From: Cellvibrio sp. UBA7671
GTDB taxonomy: Bacteria > Pseudomonadota > Gammaproteobacteria > Pseudomonadales > Cellvibrionaceae
DNA length: 64,000 nucleotides
Direction of reading: 5' to 3'
Assembly: GCA_002483145.1 (NCBI GenBank)
Contig: DLHJ01000003.1
Coordinates: 496,001 to 560,000, forward strand
The translations under genes were made by a program, and so were the position numbers. This document shows positions 16,406 through 61,023 of this stretch, one piece after another. Each line of letters begins with the position of its first letter. The stretch's first letter is position 1. A model generated the notes under the pieces. The model saw only the letters and a program-made list of their open reading frames with translations, did not search any database and had not been told where the DNA came from.

Positions 16406-16410
16406 TTTTT

Positions 16411-25767: not shown

Positions 25768-26008
25768 GTGTAAAACCTTAAGAAAGCAAATCACCTGAGC
25801 GTCAGGGCTTCCGGCATTCTCTCTGAGACTCGCCGTGAATCATCCATGTAGGCTCATCTTCGATCACGAGTGAACCGGCCAAGAACTAACGTTCTTGTCG
25901 TTCGGCTGCGCGCAAAGCATGCTTTGCTAACGCTTGCCTCACCCATGTCTCAGACGGTCTCAGAGAGAACACCGAAATCCCTCCAAGACCGCGCACTGAA
26001 TAAACCAA

Positions 26009-27130
26009 CTATTTCAAATCCGCCGGCACCGGAACCTTATCTTTGTAAACGTCCCAATTGCCGAGAATTTTATCCATCACCGCCGTACCGACAATGTAAG
26101 CCGATTCTAACGAAGCATCTAATCCAGCATAGCCTTCATTTTCAGCGAGGAGGTTTTCTGCTGCGGTAACACCCGGTGGTGGCATGGTGTAATTGCTGCC
26201 AGTGCGCAACACCAGCACGCGGTTTTTATCCACTTTGCCGATATTGTGCAAATAAGTAAGCGACAAATAAGTACCTGTATCTTCCATCGCTGAAGTCACG
26301 AACTCACCTTTGCCTTCAGTCCAGTAATCCGTCCATTTGTTCGCCCAGGTATTCATGATTTCGCCGTGCCAAAACGTCATAGCCGCGAGCTGGTCACCTT
26401 TCAACACAAAAGGTTTGCGTTGCGCATTCGGGTGATTTACATAAAGTTTGCGCGTAGCTTCAAGGCTTTCAATATCGGGCAGTTGAATATCTTTCGTTAA
26501 TTGAAATGCCCACTCGGTCAAATCAGGATTCACGCGCAACATTTCACCGGTGGGAGCCGGTTTTTTCGGGTCGTAGGGCTTGGATGTATAACGCGCAAAA
26601 TAACCTGTCTCCCAATCCGCGGGAATTTCACGCGCATCAATTTCATGCGCGAGGTCGCCGTCAACCAAATATTCTGCCCATGCGGCCGAGCCGATGGACG
26701 CATCTTCCGGGTCGATACCCGCAATACCTGCCACCAACCAATAGGCATCAGAAAAATCAAAACGCGGGTCCATGCCCAGCGCCATAGTCGCCGCTGTGGA
26801 ATGTGCAGTGCCGATACCGGTCACAATGCCCATTACACCGGTTTCCATATTCATATAAATATCGTGATAAGAATTGGGAAATTCAAATTTAGTATCGAGT
26901 TTTTGGCGCTCTTTCCACAATTGGAATTCACCGGCTTTATCACCCGAGTCTTCACCAATTTCAAACATGGTAACAACAACAAATTTCACTTTAATTGGCG
27001 CCGGTGCTTGCACACTCGCTGCTGGCGTAGCAGCCACTTCAGTCGCAGGCTTTTCACAACCCGTCATTAAACCTGCCGACATTAACGAGAGCAGCGCAAC
27101 AGACAATAAACCCGGTTTACATTTTTGCAT
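26009..27130 (-). CDS. NUP-family lipoprotein, paralogue of 15353-16405
   Basis: This 373-residue protein has a lipoprotein signal (SAGLMTGC, Cys25), followed by an Ala/Pro-rich tether and the NUP domain. Shared family segments are VTMFEIGEDSGDKAGEFQLW, ALGMDPRFDFSDAYW and LRTGSNYTMPPPG. It would be lipid-anchored, whereas the paralogue is soluble in the periplasm. It probably binds or cleaves purine nucleosides at the envelope. Flanked by an exported phosphorylase-like gene and a TonB receptor gene on the same strand. Confidence 0.85.
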   Translation of the reverse strand: MQKCKPGLLSVALLSLMSAGLMTGCEKPATEVAATPAASVQAPAPIKVKFVVVTMFEIGEDSGDKAGEFQLWKERQKLDTKFEFPNSYHDIYMNMETGVMGIVTGIGTAHSTAATMALGMDPRFDFSDAYWLVAGIAGIDPEDASIGSAAWAEYLVDGDLAHEIDAREIPADWETGYFARYTSKPYDPKKPAPTGEMLRVNPDLTEWAFQLTKDIQLPDIESLEATRKLYVNHPNAQRKPFVLKGDQLAAMTFWHGEIMNTWANKWTDYWTEGKGEFVTSAMEDTGTYLSLTYLHNIGKVDKNRVLVLRTGSNYTMPPPGVTAAENLLAENEGYAGLDASLESAYIVGTAVMDKILGNWDVYKDKVPVPADLK

Positions 27131-27186
27131 TGGAAAAATCCTGTCATAAATTCAGTTAACAATAACGAGAAAAGCTCTGAATTATT

Positions 27187-27256
27187 CGCCACTCCTGCGA
27201 ACGCAGGAGTCCACTATTTTGATTGCTATGGATACCTGCGTTCGCGGGTATGACGA
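27187..27256. repeat. REP-like mixed pair of palindromes (site 3)
   Basis: The first palindrome (27187-27213) is of the ACTCCTGCGAACGCAGGAGT flavour and the second (27230-27255) of the GATACCTGCGTTCGCGGGTA flavour. They face each other across 16 bp, between the MTAP-like gene stop and the NUP lipoprotein start. Sites 3 and 4 mix the two flavours, whereas sites 1 and 2 pair like with like. Confidence 0.8.
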
Positions 27257-27293
27257 AAAGTGTATCTTTCAGAGATTCCCTTGCGCGCGGCAA

Positions 27294-28220
27294 TTATTTC
27301 TCTTTCTTTTTGGAGGTCATCTCGGGATGGTTAATCAATCCATTGGACACGCGCGGTTTACCTTGCAGCGCCGCAATTGGTTTAAGCGATGCTAACACTA
27401 TCTCCAAACTAAGTGGATTAACGCGCGGATACAATTCTTCCATCAGCGAAAAATCCCATTTGCCCACACCTTCAGCCGGATTGGAAATCACAATAATCGC
27501 TGCGTAATTGATTCCCAGCTGACGCGCATAAACAATTTCGCTCGGCACATTCATGGTCACCACATCGCCGCCCCACTGGGCAAAGGCTTTAATTTCTGCC
27601 ACTGATTCAAACCGGCCACCGCGCGCCTGCACAATCACACCGCCGTCGTGCACTTTATGCTTTTTAAAATCACTGTTACTGCTAAAGGCTTTTTTGGTTT
27701 CAGCGAGCAGGATGTTGCGAATATCCGTGTCCATCGCCGGTGTAAAACGCGGCAGCGGAATGGCGTTGGGGTCGCGATAAATTTCTGGCGGGAACCCGAG
27801 CGCGCGATCCACATTCATATCTATAAAGTCATCGGGGATCACATAATCATAAACGCCCATATTGGGGTTGATGCCACCGGCAGTCGCACCACCGATCGCT
27901 TCTTCCACACCTAAATCATAGAGCGCTACCCAAGTCTCCAACCACTTACCCTCGCCGTGGGCATGCACGTAATAAAACGGGATACCTTCATATTCGGCGT
28001 AATAAATTTTAGGTGAGGTGCCCAGCTTGGTTTCGATGGTGAATTCTTTTTTGATCAGTTTGCTGGAAAAAAGAATGTCATTTAAAAAAGTCCCACCCAA
28101 TACGGCAATACGCGCTTTGGGCGTTCCTTCAGGAATTTGTGCTGCACCAGCGGCAACAGGTAAAAACAATGAGCAAAATAAAACTACAGTAGTGATATTT
28201 TTTAGTGCGTGAATAAACAT
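27294..28220 (-). CDS. Exported MTAP-like nucleoside phosphorylase-family protein
   Basis: This 308-residue protein has a signal peptide (AAG-AAQIP) and a phosphorylase fold related to 5'-methylthioadenosine phosphorylase. ARIAVLGGTFLND stands at the start of the domain, followed by GGATAGGINPNMGVYDYVIPDDFID, VIVQARGGRFES and the substrate-binding VTMNVPSEIVYARQLGI. Family members are usually cytoplasmic, so export is notable. It may use water or periplasmic phosphate to release a base. Start at ATG 28220; the tail is Lys-rich (SKKKEK). It lies 88 nt downstream of the TonB receptor gene and probably shares its transcript. Confidence 0.8.
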   Translation of the reverse strand: MFIHALKNITTVVLFCSLFLPVAAGAAQIPEGTPKARIAVLGGTFLNDILFSSKLIKKEFTIETKLGTSPKIYYAEYEGIPFYYVHAHGEGKWLETWVALYDLGVEEAIGGATAGGINPNMGVYDYVIPDDFIDMNVDRALGFPPEIYRDPNAIPLPRFTPAMDTDIRNILLAETKKAFSSNSDFKKHKVHDGGVIVQARGGRFESVAEIKAFAQWGGDVVTMNVPSEIVYARQLGINYAAIIVISNPAEGVGKWDFSLMEELYPRVNPLSLEIVLASLKPIAALQGKPRVSNGLINHPEMTSKKKEK

Positions 28221-28244
28221 TGGATAGCCCTGTCGTTTTGTAAG

Positions 28245-28276
28245 CGCGGGCCACTGCAATTAACAATGGCCTGCGC
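28245..28276 (-). promoter_or_regulatory. Imperfect hairpin between the TonB receptor and MTAP-like genes
   Basis: GCGCGGGCCA (about 28245-28254) can pair with TGGCCTGCGC (about 28267-28276) with one bulge on the right arm. No T run follows on the minus strand. It may set the ratio of the receptor to the downstream gene. Pairing judged by eye only. Confidence 0.3.
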
Positions 28277-28307
28277 GCAACACCTACGTGATAAGTCAAA
28301 TACTAAC

Positions 28308-30773
28308 TTAGAACTTAAAGGTCACCTTACCGACAAAACTACGCGGCAATTCTGGCAACACAATGGTGCTACCAAAAAGATCCGGGAAGTTTGCACGGAA
28401 GTAGCGTTCGTTCGTCAGGTTTTTGCCTTGCAAACTCACAGACCAGGCATCGGTACTGTAGGAAATGCCAGCGTTAAATAAGGTGTAAGACGGCAATTTA
28501 ATAGCACGGGAGAAACCAGAGTAAGTTGAATCAGCGTGCACCGCACTAGCGGTAAAGCTGTAACCATCGCCAAAATTGTAAGCACCAGTCACACTCATCA
28601 TGTTTTCTGGAATACCCGATTTTTTAGCATCTTCTTCGCTGCTAACGGGTGTTAAACCCTGCATGACATAGCCGTAAAACAATGACGGGTCAGTAACATT
28701 TACCAAATCACCGGCACCTGCAAAACCAAATTGGCTGCCACCATCCAACGCTGTCAGGTTAGTAATTTCCAAATGCGTTAAGGCTGTAGTGATGGTGAAA
28801 TCTTCGGTGATTAACAAGCGTGCTTCCAGCTCATAACCCTCACTCTGTGTTGTATTGTTACTCACCAAATCCTGCGCACTAAAATTGGTACGGGTTTGAT
28901 CAAAGTAAGCAGCAGAAACATACAAGCGATCATCGAAGAAATTACCCTTTACACCAACCTCTTTCAGCGTCGAATCCGCAAGCGCATTACCCGCCTTAGT
29001 ACCGTCAGCATTTTCGATCAAACCGGGAGAAATTTCTGAACCCTGCCCCATTACGATTGTGGATTGCGTTGAACGAGTGGCGTAAGGAATAAAACCATAG
29101 GGTAGCTGGTAGGACACGCTCATTGTCCATGAACCACCATCAACAGAGTCTTCCGCAGTAAAGTCAGCAGTGGGTACATACAACTTTGAACCAACACGTG
29201 TTGACGTCATATCGATCAGATCATAGCGTCCACCCAGCAAGACGCCCAGATTTTCGGCAATAGTGTAATCCGCCAAAATCGCAAAACCGTAATCAGTAAA
29301 ATCACCCACTACATAATTGGCATAATCCGAATCAGTGCGAGTTGCTAACAGTTTGCGATCCAGACCAGTTGATGTACCCGTTAAATCGCGACGATCAAAG
29401 TATTCGAAATCAAAATCATCGCCTTGTTTGAAATCGGTGTAGCGAATACTGGGCGATACTTGGTAGCTGGCTTTTAGCCAATCCGTATGATCCATATAGA
29501 ATGCAAACACCACTTGATCTTCAACCACATAGGTATCAACAAATTGCGAAAAGCCGTAGGCATTTTCGTTAATATTCTCTAATTCTTCATAGAAGAATTT
29601 ATTGGTGATGGTGAGTGCGTCTGAGGCTTCGTGAATTGTATCGAAGAAAAGCGTGCCTACAGTGGTCACAAGCTTGTCATCCGGTGCTACTAATGTTTGA
29701 CTGCCATCCAATTTCGCCGTACCAACATTTTGCAGCGCCCAAGCAGGATCCATCTGGGCATCGGTAGCCTCGTCTAGCGCCACAGTAAAAGGGACTCCAG
29801 GCATAAAGAAATTGCCTTTGACAAAAGTACCTTTCCAAGCCGTGTATTCATCCGGTGAATTAAAACCATCGCCGTCGGTATCAACTGAGGTAGGTGACCC
29901 TGTAATGTAAGTACCATGGTCAATCAGATCTTGAGTTACGCGGTTCCAACCCGCCACCTGATTGCCATCAAATTCGTGATACATCCCACCGAATTCAATA
30001 CGGGTAGAAGGAGACAGCTCCATATTAAACGCAGCCTGCAAAACATTCTGGTCAGTACCTGAATTTTCGTAATAACTGCCGGAGTTTTCCGTTTCAGCGT
30101 AAACGTAATAGCCCAAATCTTTTTCTCCTACAGATGCTGGGCCACCAACTTCTGCAGTCACAATATTCTTATCCCAACTACCGCGCGTTACCGAGAATTG
30201 ACCTTCTGGCTTATCGAGATATTGACCTGATTCAGCGCGAGCAGACTTGGGTTCAAAGTTGAGGTAACCACCGATTTTTGATGGACCGAATATGGGAGAT
30301 GCAGGGCCGCGTACGATATCAATACGATCAGACGCACCAATAGGCGTTGGATAGTTGCCAGGGTTGTTTACGCGGCGCATACCGCGAAAATACACTTCGC
30401 CCGGAGTTCCGCGCACATCTAAAGAACCAGCAACACCAAAAAACGATTGAGTGAAAGCACCAGGAGAAACCAACACCAGATCATCAATATCGCTGATGTT
30501 GTAGGCCTCCATCATGTCGGCGCTCACTGTAGTCAAACTACGCGGGGTTTCTACAATGGTCTTGTTAAAACCAAAAGCAGATTTACCTTGTTTGGTCATC
30601 AAGCCCATGGTGTCACCGATCACCAGGGTTTCTTCCACCGCACCTGCTGCAGCTATGGGTGCAACAGCTTGCGCCGCCACCTCTTCAGCTGACCACGCTG
30701 GCGCTGCAACAACACAACCCATGCTGATAAGTAACGCGAGTTTATTGCGGGTAAAACATTTGTGTATGGTCAT
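28308..30773 (-). CDS. TonB-dependent receptor, probable purine/nucleoside uptake
   Basis: An 821-residue outer-membrane receptor. A signal peptide (PAWSA) is followed by a TonB-box-like segment (VEETLVIGD), a plug domain (RSLTTVSADMMEAYN, RGPASPIFG, GGYLNFEPK) and a beta-barrel ending in aromatic Phe (GKVTFKF). The plug resembles siderophore-type receptors, but the surrounding genes argue for a purine ligand. A RutR-type palindrome lies 78 nt before the start, so it probably responds to the same regulator as the catabolic genes. The ligand is inferred from context only. Confidence 0.85.
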   Translation of the reverse strand: MTIHKCFTRNKLALLISMGCVVAAPAWSAEEVAAQAVAPIAAAGAVEETLVIGDTMGLMTKQGKSAFGFNKTIVETPRSLTTVSADMMEAYNISDIDDLVLVSPGAFTQSFFGVAGSLDVRGTPGEVYFRGMRRVNNPGNYPTPIGASDRIDIVRGPASPIFGPSKIGGYLNFEPKSARAESGQYLDKPEGQFSVTRGSWDKNIVTAEVGGPASVGEKDLGYYVYAETENSGSYYENSGTDQNVLQAAFNMELSPSTRIEFGGMYHEFDGNQVAGWNRVTQDLIDHGTYITGSPTSVDTDGDGFNSPDEYTAWKGTFVKGNFFMPGVPFTVALDEATDAQMDPAWALQNVGTAKLDGSQTLVAPDDKLVTTVGTLFFDTIHEASDALTITNKFFYEELENINENAYGFSQFVDTYVVEDQVVFAFYMDHTDWLKASYQVSPSIRYTDFKQGDDFDFEYFDRRDLTGTSTGLDRKLLATRTDSDYANYVVGDFTDYGFAILADYTIAENLGVLLGGRYDLIDMTSTRVGSKLYVPTADFTAEDSVDGGSWTMSVSYQLPYGFIPYATRSTQSTIVMGQGSEISPGLIENADGTKAGNALADSTLKEVGVKGNFFDDRLYVSAAYFDQTRTNFSAQDLVSNNTTQSEGYELEARLLITEDFTITTALTHLEITNLTALDGGSQFGFAGAGDLVNVTDPSLFYGYVMQGLTPVSSEEDAKKSGIPENMMSVTGAYNFGDGYSFTASAVHADSTYSGFSRAIKLPSYTLFNAGISYSTDAWSVSLQGKNLTNERYFRANFPDLFGSTIVLPELPRSFVGKVTFKF

Positions 30774-30851
30774 AGCAAGTGCACTCCAAGGGTGTCTAAT
30801 AATATGTATCAGGAAAGCTGTGCGAGAAATTGCAAGCGCTGTGCCATTTCC

Positions 30852-30865
30852 TGTCTAAATGGTTA
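30852..30865. promoter_or_regulatory. RutR-type operator palindrome upstream of the TonB receptor
   Basis: TGTCTA-AA-TGGTTA, a symmetric variant in which the inner C/G pair of each half-site is replaced by T/A on one side and the outer base by T on the other. It lies 78 nt upstream of the receptor start. It is a weaker match than 15249-15262. Confidence 0.5.
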
Positions 30866-31058
30866 ACTCTTTAAAAAATACATATTAATTTCCTTATTTT
30901 TCAATTATTTAACTAATACAAAATACAGTTCAATCGTTTATATATTGAAAAATTACACTCTCAAAAAGGCGCTTGGAGTAGATCGGGGCACAGGGGTATT
31001 GATGCAAAATAATGCGCCATGCACGCTCACTTGAACCAATATGTTGCACCCCGATTAC

Positions 31059-32558
31059 CTAGTTGAAATTACAGAGGGAATAACGCTTGCAGGTAAAGCC
31101 GTAAGAAATAGGCTTGGTATTTTTCAAACTGCTAACACCATTTTTCGCAAACGATTTTTGAAAAGTATCAACGCGCGCGTTGTAGGTTTTTAACAGCTGG
31201 GCTTTTACATCCTCCTCCACAAAACTGTATTGCAGCGAGTTGCGACTGAGCAGCAACAATTCATCCCAAGACAAATTAAATTCTTTTACTGCAACAAAAA
31301 ATTCGTCAGTGATATTGGAATCCCACATGCCGCGATCATCCGTTGAGAGCGCAACTGGGATTCCCAAACGTAAATATTCCGGGAAGGGATGCTGCGCATA
31401 ATCGCTGACATATTCGAGCAACAAATTGGAAATTAAATTGATTTCCACCAGATAGGGGCCGTGGCGCATTTCGCGCAGCAATTCCGGATCGCTAATTAAA
31501 TTCACACCGTGGCCAATGCGATCTGCACCGAGCATTAAAGTATCGCGGATATGGGAATTGGGTTCGTCTACTTCGCCAGCATGCACCGACAGTCGCACGT
31601 TGTTATATTTGTGGCGCAGCTCGCGCAGGGTTTGGGTAAAACGCAGCGGATAACCTTTATCGTTATCCTCACGCCCTACCATATTCACCGCCACATACAA
31701 ATCGCGATGGCGTGAGACTATGGCGTAAGATGCGCGCAGTTGTGCTTCCGCACTGGGAACGAAACGTAAGATTGAATCCTGAAAGCGCACAGTAACGCCG
31801 GTTTTTTTTGCATCAGCCTGTGCAAGCCGTTTGCGAAATATAGCGACTGCTTCGTCCTCACTGATCGGGCTACCATCGGGTTTAAAGTAACCGCCCGCCT
31901 CCAACATGGTCTCTAAATAGATCAAACCTTCATCGCCAAAGGCCTCCATATTTTTATAGAGGATTTCTGCAATCAGATACGGACTGTAGAGCAATTGATC
32001 CAAACGCTGCCAATGAGTTTGGAAAAATTCATCGCGCCCTTCATGGTCATGGCTCAGGGTTACGCTATTGACCCAACCCGCTTTTTCTTTTTCGTCCAGG
32101 TCTTCCAAGCGTTTGTATTCTGCTTTTTCACACTCGGGCAATTGGTTATAGGTAGATTCCATAACATTGTTGAACAACATCAAATAAGGGCGATAACCGA
32201 AATTGTTGTCGGCGAAATCGCGGCAATTATTAATGCGCACTTTGGTGTAAAACCTATAGCCATATTCTTTTTGCGCGAGTGCAACCTCATACCACCAACC
32301 GGACATGACCGAGCCGCTGATATGGTTGTGCAAATCACCGCCTTTAGGCATCGCATATAAAAAGCGGTACAAATCTTCATCGCTGGCAGTGGCTTTGAAT
32401 TTTTCGAACCAATCGCTGCTGGTCGCAGAACCTATTGCCGGGCTTGCGGCAGAAGCAGCTAGACTCAATGTAGCCAGCAGGCAGCTGGCGGCGACTAAAA
32501 CAGTACTTGTGGCACCGCGCCCTGCGCGGATAAGGGTCTGAATACTGGGCAATAACAT
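31059..32558 (-). CDS. Exported adenosine deaminase-family protein
   Basis: This 499-residue deaminase has a hydrophobic signal (LVAASCLLATLSLAASA). The catalytic set is complete: HNH (77, 79), VHAGE (326-329), IGHG and STDDRG. The length and the insertion between the first His pair and the barrel (residues 90-200) resemble secreted ADGF/ADA2-type deaminases more than the short cytoplasmic ones. It would convert adenosine to inosine in the periplasm or outside. Start at ATG 32558; a TTG at 32606 would place charged residues before the signal. A RutR-type site at 32683-32696 precedes it and is shared with divergent puuE. Confidence 0.83.
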   Translation of the reverse strand: MLLPSIQTLIRAGRGATSTVLVAASCLLATLSLAASAASPAIGSATSSDWFEKFKATASDEDLYRFLYAMPKGGDLHNHISGSVMSGWWYEVALAQKEYGYRFYTKVRINNCRDFADNNFGYRPYLMLFNNVMESTYNQLPECEKAEYKRLEDLDEKEKAGWVNSVTLSHDHEGRDEFFQTHWQRLDQLLYSPYLIAEILYKNMEAFGDEGLIYLETMLEAGGYFKPDGSPISEDEAVAIFRKRLAQADAKKTGVTVRFQDSILRFVPSAEAQLRASYAIVSRHRDLYVAVNMVGREDNDKGYPLRFTQTLRELRHKYNNVRLSVHAGEVDEPNSHIRDTLMLGADRIGHGVNLISDPELLREMRHGPYLVEINLISNLLLEYVSDYAQHPFPEYLRLGIPVALSTDDRGMWDSNITDEFFVAVKEFNLSWDELLLLSRNSLQYSFVEEDVKAQLLKTYNARVDTFQKSFAKNGVSSLKNTKPISYGFTCKRYSLCNFN

Positions 32559-32682
32559 AAGCAGAGTCTCTGAAAATCCAGGAAGTTGTTTACGAGGGAG
32601 GAGCAAGGCGGAGGGGCTAATGCAATTGTGATACCAGTAGGTGCGATTCCGCGCCAGCTGCGGAATAGCCTTGGCAATATCC

Positions 32683-32696
32683 TGTCCAAATGGACG
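32683..32696. promoter_or_regulatory. RutR-type operator between the exported deaminase and puuE
   Basis: TGTCCA-AA-TGGACG, nearly perfect symmetry. It lies in the gap between two divergent purine genes, 124 nt from the deaminase start and 177 nt from the puuE start, so it may control both. Confidence 0.6.
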
Positions 32697-32873
32697 GGAT
32701 TTGTTTTAATCTGGTGCAAGCCGGGCTTTTTTGCCCAGTAATATTGCGGGTTTTAAGACGATTCGCGGGAAAACCCTAACCTTGAACGATGGCACAGAAT
32801 TTGATGATGCTTTGACGAAACCCCGGTATTTATTAAAGTTTTGTTAAGCACACTTTTATTAGCGGTAAAGCAC

Positions 32874-33809
32874 ATGAGCGATAACAACAACCCAGCATCC
32901 TATCCACGCGACCTGCTCGGCTACGGCAGCAATCCCCCCAAAGCCAATTGGCCGGGCAGCGCGCGAATTGCCGTGCAGTTTGTGATTAATTACGAAGAAG
33001 GTGCAGAAAATTGCGTGTTGCATGGCGATGCAGCATCGGAAACTTTTTTGTCTGAAATTATCGGCGCACGCGCTTTTGAAGCGCGCCATATGAGCATGGA
33101 ATCGCTTTACGAATACGGCAGTCGCGCGGGCTTTTGGCGCTTGCATCGATTGTTCAACAAATATCAGTTGCCGGTAACCATCTACGGTGTCGCTATGGCA
33201 CTGGAACGCAACCCGGATGCAGTCGAAGCAATGCTTGAATCCGGCTGGGAAATTGCCAGCCATGGGTACCGCTGGATCGACCACCAATTTATGCCAGAGG
33301 AAATTGAGCGCGAGCATATTCGCACCGCGATTAACATACACACGCGCGTTACCGGCTCGCGCCCACTGGGTTGGTACACCGGCCGCGACAGTCCTAACAC
33401 GCGCAAATTGGTCATCGAGCAAGGTGGATTTTTATATGACTCGGATTCTTACGCCGACGATTTACCTTACTGGACGCAGGAATATACGCATATCAATAAC
33501 GGCAAACCACATTTAATTATTCCCTACACGCTCGACAGCAACGATATGCGTTTTGCGGCGGCGCAGGGATTTAATTGTGGCGACCAATTTTTTACCTATC
33601 TCAAAGACAGTTTTGATACGCTCTATGCCGAAGGTGAATTTGCGCCCAAGATGCTGAACATAGGTTTGCACTGCCGCATTATCGGCAGACCGGGGCGCAT
33701 TCAAGCGCTGGAACGATTTATCCAATATATTTTGCGGCACAATGATGTATGGGTATGCCGCCGCGATGCAATTGCGCAGCATTGGCACGAGCACCATTCA
33801 CCCTCTTGA
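32874..33809 (+). CDS. puuE: Allantoinase PuuE (polysaccharide deacetylase-like)
   Basis: This 311-residue cytoplasmic NodB-fold protein hydrolyses allantoin to allantoate without the usual metal-dependent allantoinase fold. It starts YPRDLLGYGSNPP, the hallmark of PuuE, and continues with FVINYEEGAENC, SHGYRWIDHQ, GWYTGRDSPNTR and LHCRIIGRPGR. Start at ATG 32874. Together with PuuD, UraH and UraD it completes the path from urate to allantoate. It stands alone, divergent from the exported deaminase, with a shared RutR-type operator. Confidence 0.93.
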   Translation: MSDNNNPASYPRDLLGYGSNPPKANWPGSARIAVQFVINYEEGAENCVLHGDAASETFLSEIIGARAFEARHMSMESLYEYGSRAGFWRLHRLFNKYQLPVTIYGVAMALERNPDAVEAMLESGWEIASHGYRWIDHQFMPEEIEREHIRTAINIHTRVTGSRPLGWYTGRDSPNTRKLVIEQGGFLYDSDSYADDLPYWTQEYTHINNGKPHLIIPYTLDSNDMRFAAAQGFNCGDQFFTYLKDSFDTLYAEGEFAPKMLNIGLHCRIIGRPGRIQALERFIQYILRHNDVWVCRRDAIAQHWHEHHSPS

Positions 33810-36791: not shown

Positions 36792-37398
36792 GATGTTTTC
36801 AGAGTGCCCATATCTGGTATGCCGCAACCTTTACCAGCTTACTTTAAGAGAATATCTGCTGAGTTTTTTGATGTTTTCGGCAGCAGTATTTTTGCAATAT
36901 CCGTACCTTTGGCGCAGCAAATCGCAACCACTTGTCTGATTTTGCTGTTAATCCCTTATTTGCTTCACAAACTCCCTGAATTCATTCACAAGAATGCATT
37001 TTTCTCTGATATCTCGGGGTAAATCCCGCCGCAATAAATCCCTGTCCAACCGGACAAATATTAATTTCTCACCACTTAATGTTCTGTCTGGCCGCCCAGC
37101 GCACCAAAGCAGATCAAGCACGCGCCAGATTGGCGAAAAAACGCCGAGTCCTGCACTGATTCCCTGTGATTTTTTAGATTTATCAGGCTGTGGCGTAGCT
37201 CCTGCTGCCGCTCCACACCCCCACAAACCGGATTTATCGCCTTGAATAAGCTTACTTATTAACGGTAACCAATTGATGTTAAAGATTTATTAACCAGTAA
37301 CTTTGAATTTGGATAAATGCTTTCTAGCACGTGACGCAAGTTTGAAGATAAGCCCAACACAAGTGGTGTTGAACCGTTTTGGATTTCCGGAGTTTGTT
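36792..37398. other. Long intergenic region between the PhnD-like and S1/P1 nuclease genes
   Basis: About 600 bp without a convincing gene; the short open frames in it show no protein-like features. It contains the RutR-type palindrome at 37043-37056. The promoters for both divergent genes must lie here. Confidence 0.5.
37043..37056. promoter_or_regulatory. RutR-type operator in the nuclease upstream region
   Basis: TGTCCA-AC-CGGACA is a symmetric variant with CG at the inner edge of one half. It is 342 nt from the S1/P1 nuclease start and 251 nt from the PhnD-like gene start, farther than the other sites, so the call is weaker. Confidence 0.4.
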
Positions 37399-53823: not shown

Positions 53824-53837
53824 TGGCCAGATAGACA
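53824..53837. promoter_or_regulatory. RutR-type operator, xdhA side of the divergent promoter region
   Basis: TGGCCA-GA-TAGACA, one of two related palindromes in the 244-bp gap between xdhA and the ABC importer operon. It lies 118 nt from the xdhA start. Its centre is 91 bp from that of the second site. Confidence 0.5.
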
Positions 53838-53914
53838 ATTTTTTATGCGTTTTTTGTCAAGACTGGTATTTCACAGTCGCTGGCATGCAATTTGCTCAAA
53901 CCAGTCTATCTTTT

Positions 53915-53928
53915 TGTCCAGATAGTCA
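53915..53928. promoter_or_regulatory. RutR-type operator just ahead of the ABC importer operon
   Basis: TGTCCA-GA-TAGTCA ends 21 nt before the ATPase start codon, close enough to overlap the promoter or transcript start. Paired with the site at 53824-53837. Confidence 0.5.
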
Positions 53929-53949
53929 GGTTTATGAGCGAGTTGGTTT

Positions 53950-55521
53950 ATGTCTGAAAAAAAGGCCATGCGCCTTGAATTGCTTTCCCTCACCAAAGCC
54001 TATCCGGGCTGCATCGCGAATGACGCGGTGAGCCTGCAAGTGGCTCCAGGGGAAATTCATGCGCTGCTGGGGGAAAACGGCGCGGGTAAAAGTACGCTGA
54101 TGAAAATGATCTACGGTGTAGTAAAACCCGATTCCGGGCAAATGACCTGGAATGATCGCGAGGTCAACATCACCGGCCCGGCTCACGCTCGCCAACTCGG
54201 CATGGGCATGGTGTTCCAGCACTTCTCGTTATTTGAAACATTAACAGTGACCGAAAATATCGCGCTCTATTTAACGCCTGCAGAATACGGCACGCTCGAT
54301 TTATTGCGCGCACGCATTCTTGCGGTGGGCGATGAATACGGCCTCGCGATAAATCCTGACCGCCTCGTACACAGCCTCTCGGTCGGTGAACAGCAGCGCG
54401 TGGAAATTATTCGCTGCCTGTTGCAAGACATCCAACTTTTAATTCTCGATGAACCCACCGCCGTGCTCACACCACCCGAGGTGGCGCAGCTGATCGAGGT
54501 ATTAAAAAAACTCGCGCACAAAGGGTGCAGCATTTTATTTATCTCGCACAAATTGCACGAAGTAAATGCACTCTGCGACAAGGCCACCATACTGCGCGGC
54601 GGCAAGGTGACGGGCACCTGTATTCCCCGCGAAACCAGCCCTGGCGAAATGGCGCGCTTGATGCTCGGCGATGAATTGGAATTACAAGACACCATGCCCG
54701 CTGGCAACGCCGGTGAATGCCTGCTCGCACTCGATAAGATTGAAGTAAAACCGCGCGATGCCTTTGCTATTCACTTGCAGGATATTGAATTGCAATTACA
54801 TGCGGGCGAAATTCTCGGCCTCGCTGGGGTTGCCGGTAACGGGCAAGATGAATTGGTGGATTTAATTAATGGCGAGCTGGGCAGCGATAGCGGCAGTTTA
54901 ATTTTTCACGGAAAAGATATTGGCAATACCAGTGTGCAGGAGCGGCGCAATATGGGGCTAGGCGTTGTCCCCGCTGACCGTATCGGGCGCGGCGCTCTCG
55001 GCAATATGAGTCTGACCGAAAATAATTTGTTAACCAGTTATATCAACCAAACCGGAAAATTCGGCTGGCTGAATTGGCCCGCAATAAAAGCGCGCGCTGC
55101 CGAGATCATCTCAACTTACAAAGTCAAAGCAACAGGCGCCGAGGCCAGCGCCAAAAGTCTCTCCGGTGGTAACTTGCAAAAATTTATTATCGGCCGCGAG
55201 ATTTTGCAGAATCCAAACGTGTTGGTGTGTTTTCATCCTACCTGGGGCGTTGATGTAGGCGCTGCGAATTTAATCCACCAGGAGTTGATTAAATTGCGCG
55301 ACAAAGGCGCCGCGATTTTGGTGATCAGCGAAGACCTCGACGAACTCTATTTATTGGCTGATCGACTCGGCGCATTGTGCGGCGGGCGCTTATCACCGCT
55401 CGCACCAAAATCTGCTGTCCCACTCGCGCAACTCGGCCAGTGGATGACCGGGAATTTTGGCACTCTATCTACAGGCATCTCTACAGACACTGCTGCGGCG
55501 GAGGTGGCCCATGCGCATTGA
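53950..55521 (+). CDS. BMP-type nucleoside ABC transporter, ATP-binding protein
   Basis: A 523-residue ATPase with two fused nucleotide-binding domains, as in sugar and nucleoside importers of the YufNOPQ/NupABC type. The first domain has Walker A GENGAGKST (41-49), the signature SLSVGEQQRVEI and Walker B LLILDEPTAVL. The second has the usual degenerate Walker A (GVAGNGQDE) and SLSGGNLQKFI. It would power import of purine nucleosides or bases. It overlaps the first permease gene by 11 nt. Confidence 0.92.
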   Translation: MSEKKAMRLELLSLTKAYPGCIANDAVSLQVAPGEIHALLGENGAGKSTLMKMIYGVVKPDSGQMTWNDREVNITGPAHARQLGMGMVFQHFSLFETLTVTENIALYLTPAEYGTLDLLRARILAVGDEYGLAINPDRLVHSLSVGEQQRVEIIRCLLQDIQLLILDEPTAVLTPPEVAQLIEVLKKLAHKGCSILFISHKLHEVNALCDKATILRGGKVTGTCIPRETSPGEMARLMLGDELELQDTMPAGNAGECLLALDKIEVKPRDAFAIHLQDIELQLHAGEILGLAGVAGNGQDELVDLINGELGSDSGSLIFHGKDIGNTSVQERRNMGLGVVPADRIGRGALGNMSLTENNLLTSYINQTGKFGWLNWPAIKARAAEIISTYKVKATGAEASAKSLSGGNLQKFIIGREILQNPNVLVCFHPTWGVDVGAANLIHQELIKLRDKGAAILVISEDLDELYLLADRLGALCGGRLSPLAPKSAVPLAQLGQWMTGNFGTLSTGISTDTAAAEVAHAH

Positions 55522-56593
55522 AAAACGCCTGCACGATTCGCAGCTGATGGTGTATTTGTCGCCGCTGCTCGCGCTCTTATTAACGCTAATTTCCGGCGCC
55601 TTATTATTTGCATTGCTCGGCCGCCCACCGCTCGGCAGCCTCTACACGTTTTTTATTGCACCGATCAGCGACCTCTATGGTCTTTCTGAGCTTGCGGTAA
55701 AAGTCACACCGCTGTTGCTCTGTGCAATTGGTTTAACACTCTGCTTTAAAGCAAAAATCTGGAATATCGGCGCTGAAGGCCAATTTGTTTTTGGTGCATT
55801 AATTGGTGGAGCGGTGACATTACAACTGGCGGAGAGCGAAGGCTTTTGGGTACTGCCGGTGATTATCGCCAGCGGTGCACTCGCCGGTATGGCTTGGGCG
55901 GCAATTGCGGCGCTTCTACTGACACGATTCAACGCCAATGAAATTCTCACCACGATTATGCTCAATTATATAGCGGTAAATTTATTGCTCTGGGCAGTGC
56001 ATGGCCCTCTGAAAGATCCAGACGGGCTTAATTTTCCCGAGTCAGCACTGTTTGCGAGCCAGACATTATTACCGGTGTTATTTGAGGATTATCGCGTGAG
56101 CATCGCCATTTTTATTGCGCTGTTTATGTTGGTGGTGATTTGGGTGGTGCTCACGCGCACGCTACTCGGCTTTCAATTGCGTGTGATGGGCGAGAACCAC
56201 AACGCTGCGCGCTTTGCGGGATTTAATAGCAAAAAATTAATCTGGTTGCTGCTGTGTTTCAGTGGCGCCATGGCCGGGGTAGCAGCGATTTCTGAAACCA
56301 ATGGTCCGGTAGGGCAACTGATCCCCACGCTTTCACTTGGTTATGGTTACGCCGCCATTATTGTGGTGTTTATGGGGCGCATGCATCCGCTCGGCATTTT
56401 GCTCGCCAGTTGTTTACTAGGGCTGACTTATCTCGGCGGCGAGATGGCGCAAATCGATCAGGGTTTACCAAAATCCATCACCGGATTATTCCAGGGCATG
56501 TTGCTGTTCTATCTGCTTGCCTGTGACTTGTTGATTAGCTATCGCGTGGTACCGAATTCGCGCAGCGTTAAACCTTCAGCTATCACTCAATAA
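55511..56593 (+). CDS. Nucleoside ABC transporter permease 1
   Basis: A 360-residue inner-membrane permease with about ten hydrophobic helices. It has the BPD_transp_2 pattern, with FKAKIWNIGAEGQFVFGAL and FNANEILTTIMLNYIAV near the middle. The ATG at 55511 is preceded by GGAGG at 6 nt and overlaps the ATPase gene; the frame upstream of it is a shadow. The N-terminal segment MRIEKRLHDSQ is cytoplasmic. Confidence 0.92.
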   Translation: MRIEKRLHDSQLMVYLSPLLALLLTLISGALLFALLGRPPLGSLYTFFIAPISDLYGLSELAVKVTPLLLCAIGLTLCFKAKIWNIGAEGQFVFGALIGGAVTLQLAESEGFWVLPVIIASGALAGMAWAAIAALLLTRFNANEILTTIMLNYIAVNLLLWAVHGPLKDPDGLNFPESALFASQTLLPVLFEDYRVSIAIFIALFMLVVIWVVLTRTLLGFQLRVMGENHNAARFAGFNSKKLIWLLLCFSGAMAGVAAISETNGPVGQLIPTLSLGYGYAAIIVVFMGRMHPLGILLASCLLGLTYLGGEMAQIDQGLPKSITGLFQGMLLFYLLACDLLISYRVVPNSRSVKPSAITQ

Positions 56594-56627
56594 CTCGCAA
56601 TAAAATTAAGAACACAGGTAAGATTTT

Positions 56628-57554
56628 ATGGATATAGGTTTGATCGAAAATATTCTCTTCGCAATGGTGCGCACCGGCACGCCGCTGCTGTTAGTGGCGC
56701 TGGGCGCGATGATGTCGGAGCGTTCAGGCGTATTAAACCTCGGGCAAGAGGGCATGATTTTAGTGGGTGCCGCCTGCGGATTTATCGCCGCTTATGCGGG
56801 TGGTAGTTTGGGTTTGGGAGTGCTCGCTGCCGTTGCAGCAGGTATTTTTGTCTCATTAATTTTTGCGTTTATCGCACTCACTTTAATTTCCAATCAAGTC
56901 GCCACCGGCCTTGCACTCACCATTTTCGGCACAGGCTTAAGCGCTTTTCTTGGCGCCGCTTATGTAGGCCAAACCGTTACTGGTTTTGCGCCAATTGCGA
57001 TTCCGTTTTTAAGCGATATCCCACTTATCGGCCAGGCATTATTTGCGCAGGATTTATTGGTGTATCTCTCGTTTATTTTATTTGCCGCTGTATTTGTGGT
57101 GATGCGTTACACACGTTTGGGATTAATTATCCGCGCCGTCGGCGAGAACCCAGAAGTTGCCCACGCACTGGGCTACAAAGTAATGGTGGTGCGCTACTGC
57201 GCAGTCATGTTTGGTGGAGCCATGGCGGGATTAGCGGGTGCTTATTTATCTCTCGCTTACACGCCCATGTGGTCAGAGGGGATTGCGGCCGGGCGCGGTT
57301 GGATTGCACTGGCGTTAGTGGTATTTGCCAGCTGGCGCACCGAGCGCATTTTATTCGGCGCCTGGCTATTTGGTTTTGCGAGTATCCTGCATTTGTTATT
57401 GCAGGGTTACGGTTATGAAATTTCGCCCAACCTGCTCGCCATGTTGCCCTATGTAATCACGATTATTGTGTTGGTGATGATGATGTATCGCCAAAAAAAT
57501 CAGGGCTTATTTGCGCCGCGCTCGCTCGGGCAACCCTATCATCCGTTGAAATAA
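56628..57554 (+). CDS. Nucleoside ABC transporter permease 2
   Basis: A 308-residue partner permease with about nine helices. MMSERSGVLNLGQEGMILVGAACGF and ISNQVATGLALTIFGTGLSAF are standard for the second permease of BMP-type importers. It lies 34 nt after the first permease. Confidence 0.92.
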   Translation: MDIGLIENILFAMVRTGTPLLLVALGAMMSERSGVLNLGQEGMILVGAACGFIAAYAGGSLGLGVLAAVAAGIFVSLIFAFIALTLISNQVATGLALTIFGTGLSAFLGAAYVGQTVTGFAPIAIPFLSDIPLIGQALFAQDLLVYLSFILFAAVFVVMRYTRLGLIIRAVGENPEVAHALGYKVMVVRYCAVMFGGAMAGLAGAYLSLAYTPMWSEGIAAGRGWIALALVVFASWRTERILFGAWLFGFASILHLLLQGYGYEISPNLLAMLPYVITIIVLVMMMYRQKNQGLFAPRSLGQPYHPLK

Positions 57555-57627
57555 ATTGGCATCCACTCAAATAAATTTGTAACAGCTAAATTTTTAAAAA
57601 AACCAAAACATCACAAGAGGAACCATC

Positions 57628-58710
57628 ATGACCCTGTTAACACGAAAAACATTTCTCCGGTTGCTGGGTGCAGCCTCGCTGCTCACTCTTAGCGCCAGCG
57701 TCTTCGCTGCGCCGTTAAAAGTCGGTTTTGTTTACGTCAGCCCGATTGGCGATGCCGGTTGGACTTACCAACACGATGAAGCGCGCAAAATTGTGCAAAA
57801 AGAATTTGGCGATAAAATCGAAACCACTTTTGTTGAAAGCGTGGCCGAAGGTGCAGACGCCGAGCGTGTGATTCGCAATATGGCCTCACGCGGTTACGAT
57901 TTAATTTTCACCACCTCATTTGGTTACATGAACCCCACTATTAAAGTGGCCAAAATGTTTCCCAAAGTAAAATTCGAACACGCCACCGGTTATAAAACTG
58001 CCGCCAACGTCGGTAATTATCAAGCGCGCGATTACGAAGGCCGCTACCTCGCCGGTATGGTCGCTGGCGCTATGAGTAAAAAAGAAGTGATCGGTTACGT
58101 AGGCGCATTTCCGATTCCCGAAGTGATTCGCGGCATCAACTCCTTTATGCTCGGCGCGCAAGCGGTGAATCCGAATGTCAAAATGAAAGTGGTCTGGGTC
58201 AACACCTGGCACGACCCAGCCAAAGAGCGCGAAGCGGCGGAAAGTTTGATATTGCAAGGTGCCGATGTACTCACCATGCACACTGACTCTGCGGCCACCA
58301 TTCAAGCTGCAGAAGCCAAAGGCATTTACTCGGTTGGATTCAATTCCGATATGAGCGCTTATGGCCCCAAAACCCATTTGACCTCATCTACCCAACACTG
58401 GGAGAGTATTTACAGCGCAAAAATCAAAGCGGTATTGGATGGCACCTGGAAGCCAGAGGCAATTTGGCATGGCTTGAAAGAAAATGTAGTCGCACTCTCG
58501 CCGATGAATCCGGTAGTGCCGAAAGAGGTTGTCGCCAAAGTAGATGCGTATAAAATGGAAATGATCGCGGGCAAGCGCGCTGTCTATCAAGGCCCTATTT
58601 ACGATCAGGCGGGCACACTGAAAGTCGCGGAAGGTAAAACCCTGAGCGATGAAGAATTGCATCAACAAAATTGGTATGTAAAAGGGATCGACGGGAAAAT
58701 CCCGCAGTAA
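57628..58710 (+). CDS. BMP-family substrate-binding protein
   Basis: A 360-residue periplasmic binding protein of the BMP/Med family with a signal peptide (SVFA-AP). KVGFVYVSPIGDAGWTYQHD opens the domain; GYVGAFPIPEVIRGINSFMLGA and VGFNSDMSAYGPKTHLTS are also family stretches. There is no lipobox, unlike many Gram-positive members. It would capture nucleosides or purine bases for the two permeases. The ligand cannot be fixed from sequence. Confidence 0.92.
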   Translation: MTLLTRKTFLRLLGAASLLTLSASVFAAPLKVGFVYVSPIGDAGWTYQHDEARKIVQKEFGDKIETTFVESVAEGADAERVIRNMASRGYDLIFTTSFGYMNPTIKVAKMFPKVKFEHATGYKTAANVGNYQARDYEGRYLAGMVAGAMSKKEVIGYVGAFPIPEVIRGINSFMLGAQAVNPNVKMKVVWVNTWHDPAKEREAAESLILQGADVLTMHTDSAATIQAAEAKGIYSVGFNSDMSAYGPKTHLTSSTQHWESIYSAKIKAVLDGTWKPEAIWHGLKENVVALSPMNPVVPKEVVAKVDAYKMEMIAGKRAVYQGPIYDQAGTLKVAEGKTLSDEELHQQNWYVKGIDGKIPQ

Positions 58711-58720
58711 CACTAACAAC

Positions 58721-58759
58721 GCGGCTGTATCAACGTAAAGATTAGTTGCGTGCAGCCGC
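58721..58759. promoter_or_regulatory. Intergenic hairpin after the binding-protein gene
   Basis: GCGGCTG (58721-58727) pairs with CAGCCGC (58753-58759), with inner CAAC/GTTG also able to pair. No T run follows. Such structures after binding-protein genes often protect the upstream mRNA or reduce expression of what follows, here the regulator gene. Confidence 0.4.
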
Positions 58760-58783
58760 ACTTTAACGCGAGAAACAATAACA

Positions 58784-59608
58784 ATGGCAACCAAGACCAC
58801 AGCGGTAAAAACAACAAGCGCAAACAATGCAGTAGCGGCACCCAGCAACAAAAAGACAACGACCGGCAAAGCCATCCCTACCAGTAAGAGTGCGGCGGTA
58901 AAAACTATGGTGACTAAAAAGGCAGAAACATCGCTGGATTTTAATCCCACTGAAACGCCCACCGGAAAATACAAACCGGGCAAAATCCGCGATCGCAATC
59001 TCACCAATATTATTAACGCGGCAGAGGAAGAATTTGTACACAATGGCTTTCGCGGCGCGAGTATCCAGAACATCGCCGACCGCGCGGGCATCCCCAAAGC
59101 CAATGTGCATTATTACTTTAAAAGTAAAACGAATTTGTACGTCGCGGTGCTCGATAACATTATTAATTTGTGGAACGACCTGCTCGGTGAAATCACGGTA
59201 GATGATGATCCCGCTGACGTATTGGATCGTTTTATTCGCAAAAAAGTCGAGCTGTCTTATACCCATCCACGCGCATCCAAACTTTATGCGATGGAAATGA
59301 TTCAGGGCGCGCCGCATTTGAAAGGTTATATCCGCACCGAGATGCGCCAGTTCGTACGCCGCAAGGTGCAGATAATCGAGCAGTGGATTGAACTCGGGCG
59401 CATGGACAAGGTCGATCCTATGCATTTGATTTTTTTAATCTGGTCATCGACGCAACACTATGCGGATTTCGATGTGAAAATTCTCACGGTGATGAACCGG
59501 GCAGAATATGAGCCGGATATGATCAAAGATATTTCCGATTTTTTAAGCCATATGATTTTAAAAGGCTGCGGCCTCAAACCACCCGCGACAGAACCACCTG
59601 CCGCCTAA
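58784..59608 (+). CDS. RutR-like TetR-family regulator with a long basic N-terminal tail
   Basis: The C-terminal part strongly resembles E. coli RutR, with ASKLYAMEMIQGAP and DPMHLIFLIWSSTQHYADF. The helix-turn-helix is at about residues 92-113 (ASIQNIADRAGIPKANVHYYF). RutR binds pyrimidine bases and a TTGACCAnnTGGTCAA operator. Here the gene lies in a purine cluster with similar palindromes upstream of many operons, so it may sense a purine base. The first about 65 residues are a Thr/Ala/Lys-rich disordered tail not found in E. coli RutR (which has about 15). It follows the ABC transporter genes and precedes the 8-oxoguanine deaminase gene by 29 nt. Confidence 0.87.
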   Translation: MATKTTAVKTTSANNAVAAPSNKKTTTGKAIPTSKSAAVKTMVTKKAETSLDFNPTETPTGKYKPGKIRDRNLTNIINAAEEEFVHNGFRGASIQNIADRAGIPKANVHYYFKSKTNLYVAVLDNIINLWNDLLGEITVDDDPADVLDRFIRKKVELSYTHPRASKLYAMEMIQGAPHLKGYIRTEMRQFVRRKVQIIEQWIELGRMDKVDPMHLIFLIWSSTQHYADFDVKILTVMNRAEYEPDMIKDISDFLSHMILKGCGLKPPATEPPAA

Positions 59609-59637: not shown

Positions 59638-61023
59638 ATGACATCTTCTGCTTACGGCAGCACACACAGTGCTGCCATCTGGATTAAACATCCGCGCGCC
59701 TGTTGGACAGGTAATTCACAAGACGCCAGCAATGGCTTGGTGATTCAAGGCAATAACATTATTGAATTGGTTGCCGCAGGGAAATCACCCGATAGCGTTT
59801 ACGATTACAGTTTCGATGCCTCTGACCATGTGGTTTTGCCGGGTCTGATTAATTGCCATCACCACTTTTACCAAACGCTCACCCGCGCACTGCCCGGCGC
59901 ACTCAACAAAGAATTATTTCCCTGGCTGCAAGCGCTCTATCCGGTCTGGTCAAATTTAAATGACGAGGCAATTTTTGCATCTACGCAATTAGCGTTAAGC
60001 GAATTATTGCTGTCAGGTTGTACCACAGCCGCCGATCATCACTATGTATTCAGCAGCATTATGCCGCACGCGATTGATGCGCAAGTTGCCGCCGCCAAAA
60101 CCATCGGCAACCGCGTAACCTTAACACGCGGCTCCATGAGCCTCGGCCAATCCAAAGGGGGTTTGCCACCGGATTCGGTGGTGGAGAGCGATGAAAAAAT
60201 CCTCAGCGAAAGCGAGCGTTTAATTAATAGCTATCACGACACCAGCGAAGATTCCTTTTGCAAAATCGCCCTCGCTCCTTGCTCACCTTTTTCTGTAACG
60301 CCAGATTTAATGCGTGCAACCGCTGTGCTCGCGCAACAAAAAGATGTGTTGCTGCACACCCATCTAGGTGAAACCGAAGATGAAAATAATTTCTGCCTGA
60401 AACAATTTGGTATGCGCCCGGTGGATTATCTGGATGATGTAGGCTGGTTAAACAACCGCGTCTGGCTTGCCCACGGCATTCATTTTAATGAAGAAGAAAT
60501 TGCACGCTTGGGCCACGCCTACGTCGGCGTCTGCCACTGCCCCACCTCCAACATGCTCCTCGCCTCCGGCATGTGCCACACTCGCGATTTACAACGCGCA
60601 GGCGCACCGGTCGGTTTGGGTGTCGATGGCTCTGCATCCAACGACGGCTCCAATATGATTCAAGAAGTTCGCCAAGCCATGCTGCTCCAAAAACTCCGCT
60701 ACGGCTCCGCGAATTTCACGCATATCGATGCTCTAAAACTCGCAACCTCTGGTAGCGCAAAATTATTACACCGCCCCGAACTCGGCGAACTCGCCGTCGG
60801 CAAAAAAGCCGACCTCGCCCTATTTTCCCTAAACCAACCCCGCTTCTCCGGCCACGGCGACCCACTCGCCGCATTAATTCTATGCGGCGCCCACAAAGCG
60901 GATTACGTGATGGTTGCGGGTGAATGGAAAGTGAAAAACGGTGAAATGGTGGATGTGGATATTAATGATGTGATGGCACGACATGGGGTTGTGGCAAAAC
61001 GGTTACGCGAGATGGCGGCGTAA
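59638..61023 (+). CDS. 8-oxoguanine deaminase-like amidohydrolase
   Basis: A 461-residue cog0402 amidohydrolase. Metal ligands are in LPGLINCHHHFYQTLTRALPG, LLHTHLGETEDE, WLAHGIHF and LGVDGSASNDGSN. The stretch LTRALPGALNKELFPWLQALYPVW and CTTAADHHYVF match the 8-oxoguanine deaminases described in Pseudomonas, which yield urate directly. A guanine deaminase role is less likely because a canonical guaD is present at 46625-47965. Isoguanine or other purines are possible substrates. Probably co-transcribed with the regulator. Confidence 0.83.
   Translation: MTSSAYGSTHSAAIWIKHPRACWTGNSQDASNGLVIQGNNIIELVAAGKSPDSVYDYSFDASDHVVLPGLINCHHHFYQTLTRALPGALNKELFPWLQALYPVWSNLNDEAIFASTQLALSELLLSGCTTAADHHYVFSSIMPHAIDAQVAAAKTIGNRVTLTRGSMSLGQSKGGLPPDSVVESDEKILSESERLINSYHDTSEDSFCKIALAPCSPFSVTPDLMRATAVLAQQKDVLLHTHLGETEDENNFCLKQFGMRPVDYLDDVGWLNNRVWLAHGIHFNEEEIARLGHAYVGVCHCPTSNMLLASGMCHTRDLQRAGAPVGLGVDGSASNDGSNMIQEVRQAMLLQKLRYGSANFTHIDALKLATSGSAKLLHRPELGELAVGKKADLALFSLNQPRFSGHGDPLAALILCGAHKADYVMVAGEWKVKNGEMVDVDINDVMARHGVVAKRLREMAA

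Follow-up and report, generated by a model that had tools for sequence, protein, structure and literature searches.

A RutR-family regulator and its predicted operators in a purine-scavenging island of Cellvibrio sp. UBA7671

What does a RutR-like regulator control in a genome in which RutA is not found, and to which molecule would it respond? The question is raised by a 64,000-nucleotide stretch of the genome of Cellvibrio sp. UBA7671 (contig DLHJ01000003.1, positions 496,001 to 560,000; hereafter the window), which contains a large island for nucleic-acid and purine scavenging. It encodes a TetR-family regulator of the RutR/YcdC family (TetR_C_3; positions 58784..59608, + strand) and contains seven copies of a 14-bp palindrome. 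An earlier note, made from the sequence, had taken both as signs of a RutR regulon rewired toward purines. The joint explanation that fits best, and that we consider fairly likely, is a repressor of purine-use genes from a purine-associated branch of the RutR family, acting in a RutR-like mode and probably with a different ligand. Computed directly were the family, the branch, the substitutions in the pocket, and the operator with its recurrence at purine promoters of different genera; the predictions on DNA binding and regulon are rated higher than that of a purine ligand.

The regulator comprises a helix-turn-helix (HTH) motif (residues 76–122) and a ligand domain (residues 123–264). A Pfam search assigned it to the TetR_C_3/YcdC-like proteins (PF08362, 160.2 bits, cut-off 25; PF00440, 50 bits, cut-off 24), and the genome has no other PF08362 protein. 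Its closest solved relative is RutR (PDB sequence search, E 5e-38), with 42% identity to the E. coli protein across 154 residues, and RutR structures are also the best solved neighbours of its AlphaFold model (mean pLDDT 86.2), the liganded forms giving TM scores of 0.86–0.88. The protein is RutR-like, as the earlier note had it, and it falls outside the RutR equivalogs, with 184.9 bits for TIGR03613 (half of the cut-off of 368) and 157.3 bits for NF011584 (cut-off 230). Nor does it stand beside or control a rut operon: RutA was not found in the genome by a search that did give a match in the E. coli control. Dihydropyrimidinase was not found in the genome either, which carries little weight as this search was made without a control genome. 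Among the best 80 of 585 confirmed loci, the closest listed relative is a protein of a Cellvibrio metagenome-assembled genome (99% identity over the query). The HTH motif is preceded by a tail of about 70 residues rich in Lys, Thr and Ala (window positions 58784-58990), whereas the N-terminal tail of E. coli RutR is short. In other genomes of our comparison (G numbers), the alignment with the regulator starts at residue 1 (G006, G007), 24–27 (G002, G016) or 38 (G011, G018).

All seven 14-mers reported in the earlier note were found. Compared with the pattern TGNCCANNTGGNCA, those at 12064 and 15249 are exact, those at 32683, 37043, 53824 and 53915 have one mismatch and that at 30852 has two. 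The intergenic region of abcA, encoding an ATP-binding cassette (ABC) transporter ATPase, and xdhA contains TGTCCAGATAGTCA (53915..53928), 22 bp from abcA, and TGGCCAGATAGACA (53824..53837), 92 bp from xdhA. These score 18.2 and 15.8 bits, respectively, with a matrix built from sites at the xdhA promoters of other genera (the non-Cellvibrio matrix). The highest score of the window, 21.1 bits, belongs to TGTCCAAATGGTCA (15249..15262), located 70 bp from nup1 (start 15332). TGTCTAAATGGTTA (30852..30865; 15.7 bits) lies 79 bp from the TonB-dependent receptor gene tbdr1 (start 30773), and TGTCCAAATGGACG (32683..32696; 13.5 bits) lies between adgf (77 bp) and the allantoinase gene puuE (145 bp). 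Two further sites are candidates: TGCCCAGATGGTCA (12064..12077; 14.2 bits), 91 bp from the adenosine deaminase gene ada1 (start 12168), and TGTCCAACCGGACA (37043..37056; 15.2 bits), 247 bp from an S1/P1 nuclease gene and 216 bp from a divergent phosphonate-binding-like gene.

The placing of nearly all these palindromes at purine-gene promoters is upheld by their positions: all seven are non-coding and lie 22–247 bp from gene starts, in a window of which 14.3% is non-coding (P about 9e-6). By crude counting, enrichment of the pattern in the window is slight (45 matches at two mismatches or fewer, 31.5 expected; 4 of 100 shuffles as high), so that position and conservation carry the evidence. 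When the window was scanned with the non-Cellvibrio matrix, the seven sites fell within the top 8 places. At least 13 bits were reached at 8 places, whereas 20 mononucleotide shuffles gave 0.75 such places on average and never more than 2. The sites behind this matrix were themselves chosen with the window matrix, so that its bias to T at position 1 comes in part from there. The remaining top place is TGGCCAGATAGCCA at 37488-37501, within the S1/P1 nuclease gene (14.1 bits); an identical 14-mer is present in the G016 orthologue. An additional exact match to TGNCCANNTGGNCA, absent from the earlier list, was observed at 53189-53202 inside xdhA. A similar 14-mer recurs inside xdhA of G002, G006, G011, G016 and G018 (11.9–15.5 bits, window matrix), for which coding constraint and an intragenic operator are both possible.

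Conservation of the operators was analyzed in five Cellvibrio relatives (G002, G006, G011, G016 and G018), a site being counted as kept at 10 bits or more. The operators of xdhA/abcA, tbdr1 and adgf/puuE are kept in all five and also on the contig of G010. At xdhA/abcA they form a pair about 91 bp apart, reduced to a single one in G018: the 53824 site has a counterpart in 5/5 relatives, and the 53915 site is found at the same place in 4/5 (absent in G018) as well as in some other genera. The sites at 30852 and 32683 are each present in 5/5 relatives and in G010, the former at 11.6 bits. The nup1 operator is kept in G006, G011, G031 and the loci L167 and L169 and is missing in G002 and G025; of the five relatives, three have nup1 in the stretch read, and two of these keep the operator. 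The comparison with purine genes of related genomes that the earlier note had called for thus shows the operators recurring at xdhA/abcA, tbdr1 and adgf/puuE, and partly at nup1.

Outside Cellvibrio, the window matrix gave at least 13 bits at 32 of 48 xdhA promoters, compared to a mean of 0.3 and a maximum of 1 in dinucleotide shuffles (40 rounds) and 0/47 in xdhB interiors. Several of the 48 loci are closely related to each other, L167 and L270 apparently being one sequence. Twelve promoters of the Marinobacter/Halopseudomonas type were inspected again; with the window matrix 11 of these looked empty at 12 bits, while a broader matrix gave best sites of 9.9–18.2 bits in 12/12, a second look that is excluded from the count of 32. 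De novo analysis of the 48 promoters yielded the dyads ACCAA/TTGGT with gap 0 (7 sequences), GACCA with gap 2 (6) and TGACC with gap 4 (5), which would fit the same operator. Dyads reached at most 2 sequences in each of 10 shuffles; CCCGG with gap 4 and AGCAA with gap 1 also reached 5 in the promoters. Applying the window matrix to the outside loci and the outside matrix to the window removes most of the circularity. The target promoters carry the core TGACCAnnTGGTCA palindrome, which, judged from sequence, would make the regulator a user of RutR-like operators. With operators at xdhA, puuE, nup1, the TonB receptor gene and the ABC transporter genes, the predicted targets are those of purine breakdown and uptake, in agreement with the earlier note.

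The place of the regulator within the RutR family was analyzed in 143 RutR-family proteins with their neighbourhoods (138 stretches, including the window and E. coli). This sample is biased to the kin of the window regulator: 80 loci are the best 80 of the 585 confirmed ones, and the other stretches were hand-chosen from lists. Labels were assigned mechanically, purine being given to a protein when any of 15 marker genes lay within 10.5 kb of it with an identity of 40% or higher. This gave 96 purine, 11 pyd and 7 rut proteins; another 11 (Colwellia type) adjoin a TonB receptor alone, and the remaining 18 are without a marker. An unrooted maximum-likelihood tree, computed with columns 78 and 97 omitted from the 95 of the 143 proteins that passed thinning at 86% identity and a gap limit, is divided by a split with fair, not perfect, support (93/81). 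One side (61 rows) holds 48 purine, 7 Colwellia-type and 6 unlabelled proteins, with no rut or pyd member. The other 34 rows comprise all 7 rut and 11 pyd members, 6 purine-labelled proteins and 10 unlabelled ones; L252 and L282 are purine-labelled yet grouped with rut/pyd members.

The window regulator shows the three features by which we delimit a purine branch, namely Asn or Asp at position 78 (E. coli RutR numbering, used throughout), a purine neighbourhood and a place on the 61-row side. By tree and neighbourhood it is a member of a separate, broad paralogous branch of the RutR family. This branch extends over many gammaproteobacterial genera, among them Cellvibrio, Marinobacter, Halopseudomonas, Halomonas, Hahella and Thalassolituus. 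In five of the sampled genomes (G034, G353, G552, G661 and G885), a rut-operon member and a purine-branch member occur together. Given the separate branch and these genomes, rewiring of a rut regulon in this lineage finds no support, and the idea of a rewired RutR was not borne out. Four pyd-type (preTA-hyuA) loci, L280, L284, L285 and L286, were observed to have two neighbouring RutR-family genes that belong to different tree groups.

In the structural description of RutR, uracil is stacked between Trp77 and Trp167 and held by Gln171 and by a water on Tyr97, with Gln179 of the partner chain nearby (PMC10891134). The window regulator keeps Trp77, Trp167 and Gln171, and has three substitutions at or beside the uracil contacts: Asn replaces Leu78, Phe replaces Tyr97 and Lys replaces Gln179. 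Residue 78 adjoins the stacking Trp77. A total of 105 proteins of the 143 have Asn or Asp at this position, namely 88 purine-labelled, 11 of the Colwellia type and 6 without a label. None of the rut (0/7) and pyd (0/11) members does; Leu78 occurs in 7/7 and 7/11 of them, respectively. As it requires 3 changes on the tree, Asn/Asp78 should be read as essentially one event and not as many independent cases. Phe97 is present in 61 of the 105 Asn/Asp78 proteins, and Lys179 is found in the close kin of the window regulator alone (6/96 purine-labelled). The substitutions in the predicted pocket make a ligand change plausible. Of the change in both regulon and ligand that the earlier note had envisaged, the first part is supported; the second is plausible only, as Trp77, Trp167 and Gln171 are kept.

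The mechanism that we propose follows that of RutR. A TetR-type dimer would bind TG[A/T]C[C/T]A-nn-T[G/A]G[A/T]CA at the promoters and repress them, and a small heterocyclic ligand lodged between Trp77 and Trp167 would release it. The regulon would include xanthine dehydrogenase, allantoinase, nup1, the TonB receptor and the ABC transporter, with the regulator gene downstream of the latter on the same strand. Gene content and pocket changes point, with a likelihood somewhat better than even, to a ligand that is a purine base or an oxopurine (for example xanthine, hypoxanthine, guanine or urate). This grading reflects the L189 cluster, described below, in which the ligand could be any nucleic-acid base.

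Several observations weigh against this proposal. The exact motif TGWCYANNTRGWCA occurs at 5 places genome-wide (2 of them in the window) and its reversed control at 4, so there is no enrichment, and with one mismatch the whole-genome counts are 93 and 163. The consensus TGTCCARATGGTCA with up to one mismatch is found at 3 places in 5.04 Mb, all inside the window; allowing two mismatches gives 64 places, of which 6 fall in the window (1.3% of the genome), and 70 for its reversed control. This count is circular, since the consensus was derived from the sites themselves. By itself, plain pattern counting, in the window or genome-wide, does not establish a regulon. Across Cellvibrio genomes, exact TGWCYANNTRGWCA numbers 4–9 in the 6 genomes with the regulator and 0–4 in the 8 without it, which is suggestive only. 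As the motif shows no genome-wide excess, we read the regulon as mainly local, with seven sites at about eight promoters. Two of these sites are doubtful: the 12064 (ada1) site is not upstream of the single orthologue available, in G002, and the 37043 (S1/P1) site is not upstream of its single available orthologue, in G016. No site was found within 330 bp upstream of nup2, pnp2, pucG, ggt, amid, m20, ada2, puuD, gud1 or uraD; some of the island genes without a site of their own may sit within operons. Outside Cellvibrio, 16 of the 48 xdhA promoters score below 13 bits.

On the ligand side, the kept Trp77, Trp167 and Gln171 leave uracil among the candidates. The purine branch includes the Colwellia-type members (Asp78/Phe97), and L189, the sole locus of this type annotated by Pfam, is a general nucleoside cluster with genes for a uridine kinase, a nucleoside transporter, DeoC and a pyrimidine nucleoside phosphorylase. 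Within positions 300-13400 of L189, the regulator gene is followed by endonuclease/exonuclease/phosphatase-family and alkaline phosphatase genes, with a TonB receptor gene on its other side. Perfect TGACCAnnTGGTCA operators are located before the genes for the uridine kinase, the nucleoside transporter and DeoC, and also upstream of that for the pyrimidine nucleoside phosphorylase. Further loci with the regulator beside a TonB receptor are L194, L195, L198, L201, L202, L204, L206 and L208 (Colwellia, Thalassotalea, Psychrosphaera and kin). A second RutR-family group, with Leu77/Leu78, also adjoins purine genes in several families, so Asn/Asp78 is not required for a purine neighbourhood; members observed on this purine side are G054, L250, L253, L256, L259 and L283.

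That the palindromes serve another regulator, the RutR-like gene being a bystander, appears very improbable. Co-occurrence differs from binding, and the pairing of this regulator with these operators was drawn from sequence, but the operator resembles the RutR consensus of E. coli, TTGACCAnnTGGTCAA, as quoted in the earlier note, and the non-Cellvibrio matrix also finds TGACCGTTTAGTCC upstream of E. coli rutA. The regulator gene moreover adjoins the sites across genera whose gene orders differ. In one genome with puuD and puuE and no regulator match above background (G049, 55 kb read), no operator was found upstream of either gene; stray 14-base matches lie 4.8 kb beyond puuE and, for the other one, far from both genes. 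Among 21 genomes of the genus, a full-length Urate_ox_N protein and the regulator occur together in 7, the protein alone in 1 (G010) and neither in 13. G010 has the cluster and the operators on a contig that ends inside the ABC transporter genes, which elsewhere precede the regulator gene, so the absence of the regulator is probably a matter of assembly.

Other readings keep the operator and the regulon and differ in the ligand. We think it improbable that a downstream catabolite (allantoin, ureidoglycine, glyoxylate or similar) takes the place of the purine ring: puuE belongs to the predicted regulon, and allantoin induces the gcl cluster of P. aeruginosa, near which PA1504, a YcdC/RutR-type TetR protein, is named as a possible regulator under investigation by the authors (PMC12694930). 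However, the Trp77/Trp167 sandwich suits a flat aromatic ring, and most of the conserved targets (xdhA, ABC transporter, nup1, TonB receptor) serve uptake or the early part of the pathway. A ligand that is still uracil or thymine, as a general nucleic-acid signal that opens purine scavenging, is unlikely, but deserves more credit. The conserved contacts speak for it, the nucleases, phosphatase and TonB receptors of the window fit the use of whole nucleic acids, and nucleoside salvage genes stand under strong operators in the Colwellia-type L189. It is at odds with Leu78 to Asn/Asp across the branch, with Phe97 and Lys179 in the subgroup of the window regulator and with a genome without rutA; it may also be argued that genomes with two paralogues would gain little from two uracil sensors. 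A purine-branch repressor with a changed ligand is the explanation that we prefer.

This explanation may extend to the family. Tentatively, and with less than even confidence, we suggest a third branch beside RutR (rut) and PydR (pyd) that would be purine-responsive across Gammaproteobacteria, in which the tryptophan sandwich and the operator core were kept, the change of Leu78 to Asn/Asp would read a purine, and rut-type operators would have drifted to an outer A or G. At xdhA, T is found in 57/60 half-site ends of the matrix sites, where selection favours T, and in 103/166 ends when the outer base is left free. At rutA, the ends of the best sites are A or G in 13/14, and T occurs in 4/28 with free ends. 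This slight difference hints at insulation between the paralogues, within limits set by a rut sample of seven loci and by the pyd locus L280, which has a purine-like operator. If so, the drift to A or G would keep both circuits apart in cells with two paralogues.

On the minus strand of the island, profile searches identified xdhA (52203-53732; TIGR02963, 483 bits, cut-off 467) and xdhB (49826-52327; TIGR02965, 1166 bits, cut-off 849.5) of xanthine dehydrogenase, xdhC (48966-49826, Pfam), the OHCU decarboxylase gene uraD (48441-48941; Pfam and UraD_2 TIGR03180, 161.9 bits, cut-off 139.4), a guanine deaminase gene (46625-47965; Pfam and TIGR02967, 564.7 bits, cut-off 375.4) and the gene of the Urate_ox_N protein (45414-46637, Pfam). 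The ABC transporter genes (53950..58710, + strand) encode the ATPase (abcA; NCBIfam ABC ATPase), two permeases (PF02653) and a Bmp/PnrA-like binding protein (PF02608). The regulator gene lies directly 3' of them on the same strand. Starting 29 bp downstream of the regulator gene, an 8-oxoguanine deaminase is encoded at 59638..61023 (+ strand; NF006055, 674.6 bits, cut-off 532), and salvage of damaged bases may be part of the purine unit. Positions 12168..17542 (+ strand) hold ada1, genes for a nucleoside phosphorylase superfamily protein and a protein without a Pfam match, nup1 (purine nucleoside permease family) and an IU nucleoside hydrolase gene. The stretch 17708..33809 includes an allantoate amidohydrolase gene (18351-19586) and genes for a second adenosine deaminase, a class-V aminotransferase, a second NUP and phosphorylase, a TonB receptor, an ADA-like deaminase and the allantoinase PuuE, among others. 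The operator common to adgf and puuE adjoins the gene of a 515-aa adenosine deaminase-related protein (adgf, 31059-32606). On this protein the bacterial ADA model aligns over a shorter part than the ADGF-type model TIGR01431, whose score of 116.8 bits is below its cut-off of 315. Other products of the island are TonB-dependent receptors, an acid phosphatase, the S1/P1 nuclease, a non-specific endonuclease and phosphorylases.

If the proposal is correct, many marine and soil bacteria have in this protein a likely regulator of their purine breakdown, and there would be reason for caution in labelling such proteins as pyrimidine regulators. It would also provide a clean test case of a sensor that changes its ligand while fold and operator are kept, in a family whose RutR pocket was solved with uracil, and with a prediction that hinges on one residue beside the stacking tryptophan. 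A purine regulon of this branch was not described in any paper that we found; subscription journals and the RegPrecise tables lay outside the search.

Among known systems, PydR of Pseudomonas putida, reportedly described by Hidese in 2012 as a RutR-like repressor of dihydropyrimidine dehydrogenase (cited in PMC7332683), is likewise a RutR-family paralogue tied to a nucleobase pathway. The 11 members adjacent to preTA-hyuA-type genes fall in the 34-row part of the tree, all without Asn/Asp78; the sequence of PydR itself is outside the set. PA1504 is similar in its proposed RutR-type link to purine and allantoin use and perhaps belongs to the Leu77/Leu78 purine-side group; the relevant part of a ChIP-seq study lists it under motility alone (PMC13086498). 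The RegPrecise collection is comparable in that its RutR regulons, reconstructed for 68 genomes, have motifs that change between taxa (PMC5343134). Unlike the present proposal, its main text gives pyrimidine catabolism, and purine targets may already be contained in its RutR target tables. The nearest known system is RutR of E. coli, with which the window regulator shares the fold, the HTH motif, Trp77, Trp167 and Gln171 and the core operator TGACCAnnTGGTCA. It differs in the limited identity, in a genome without rutA and in Asn78, Phe97 and Lys179. The purine-side operators differ in turn from those of rut, with half-sites that are often TGTC and an outer base that is mostly T, whereas the seven sites upstream of rutA mostly have A or G.

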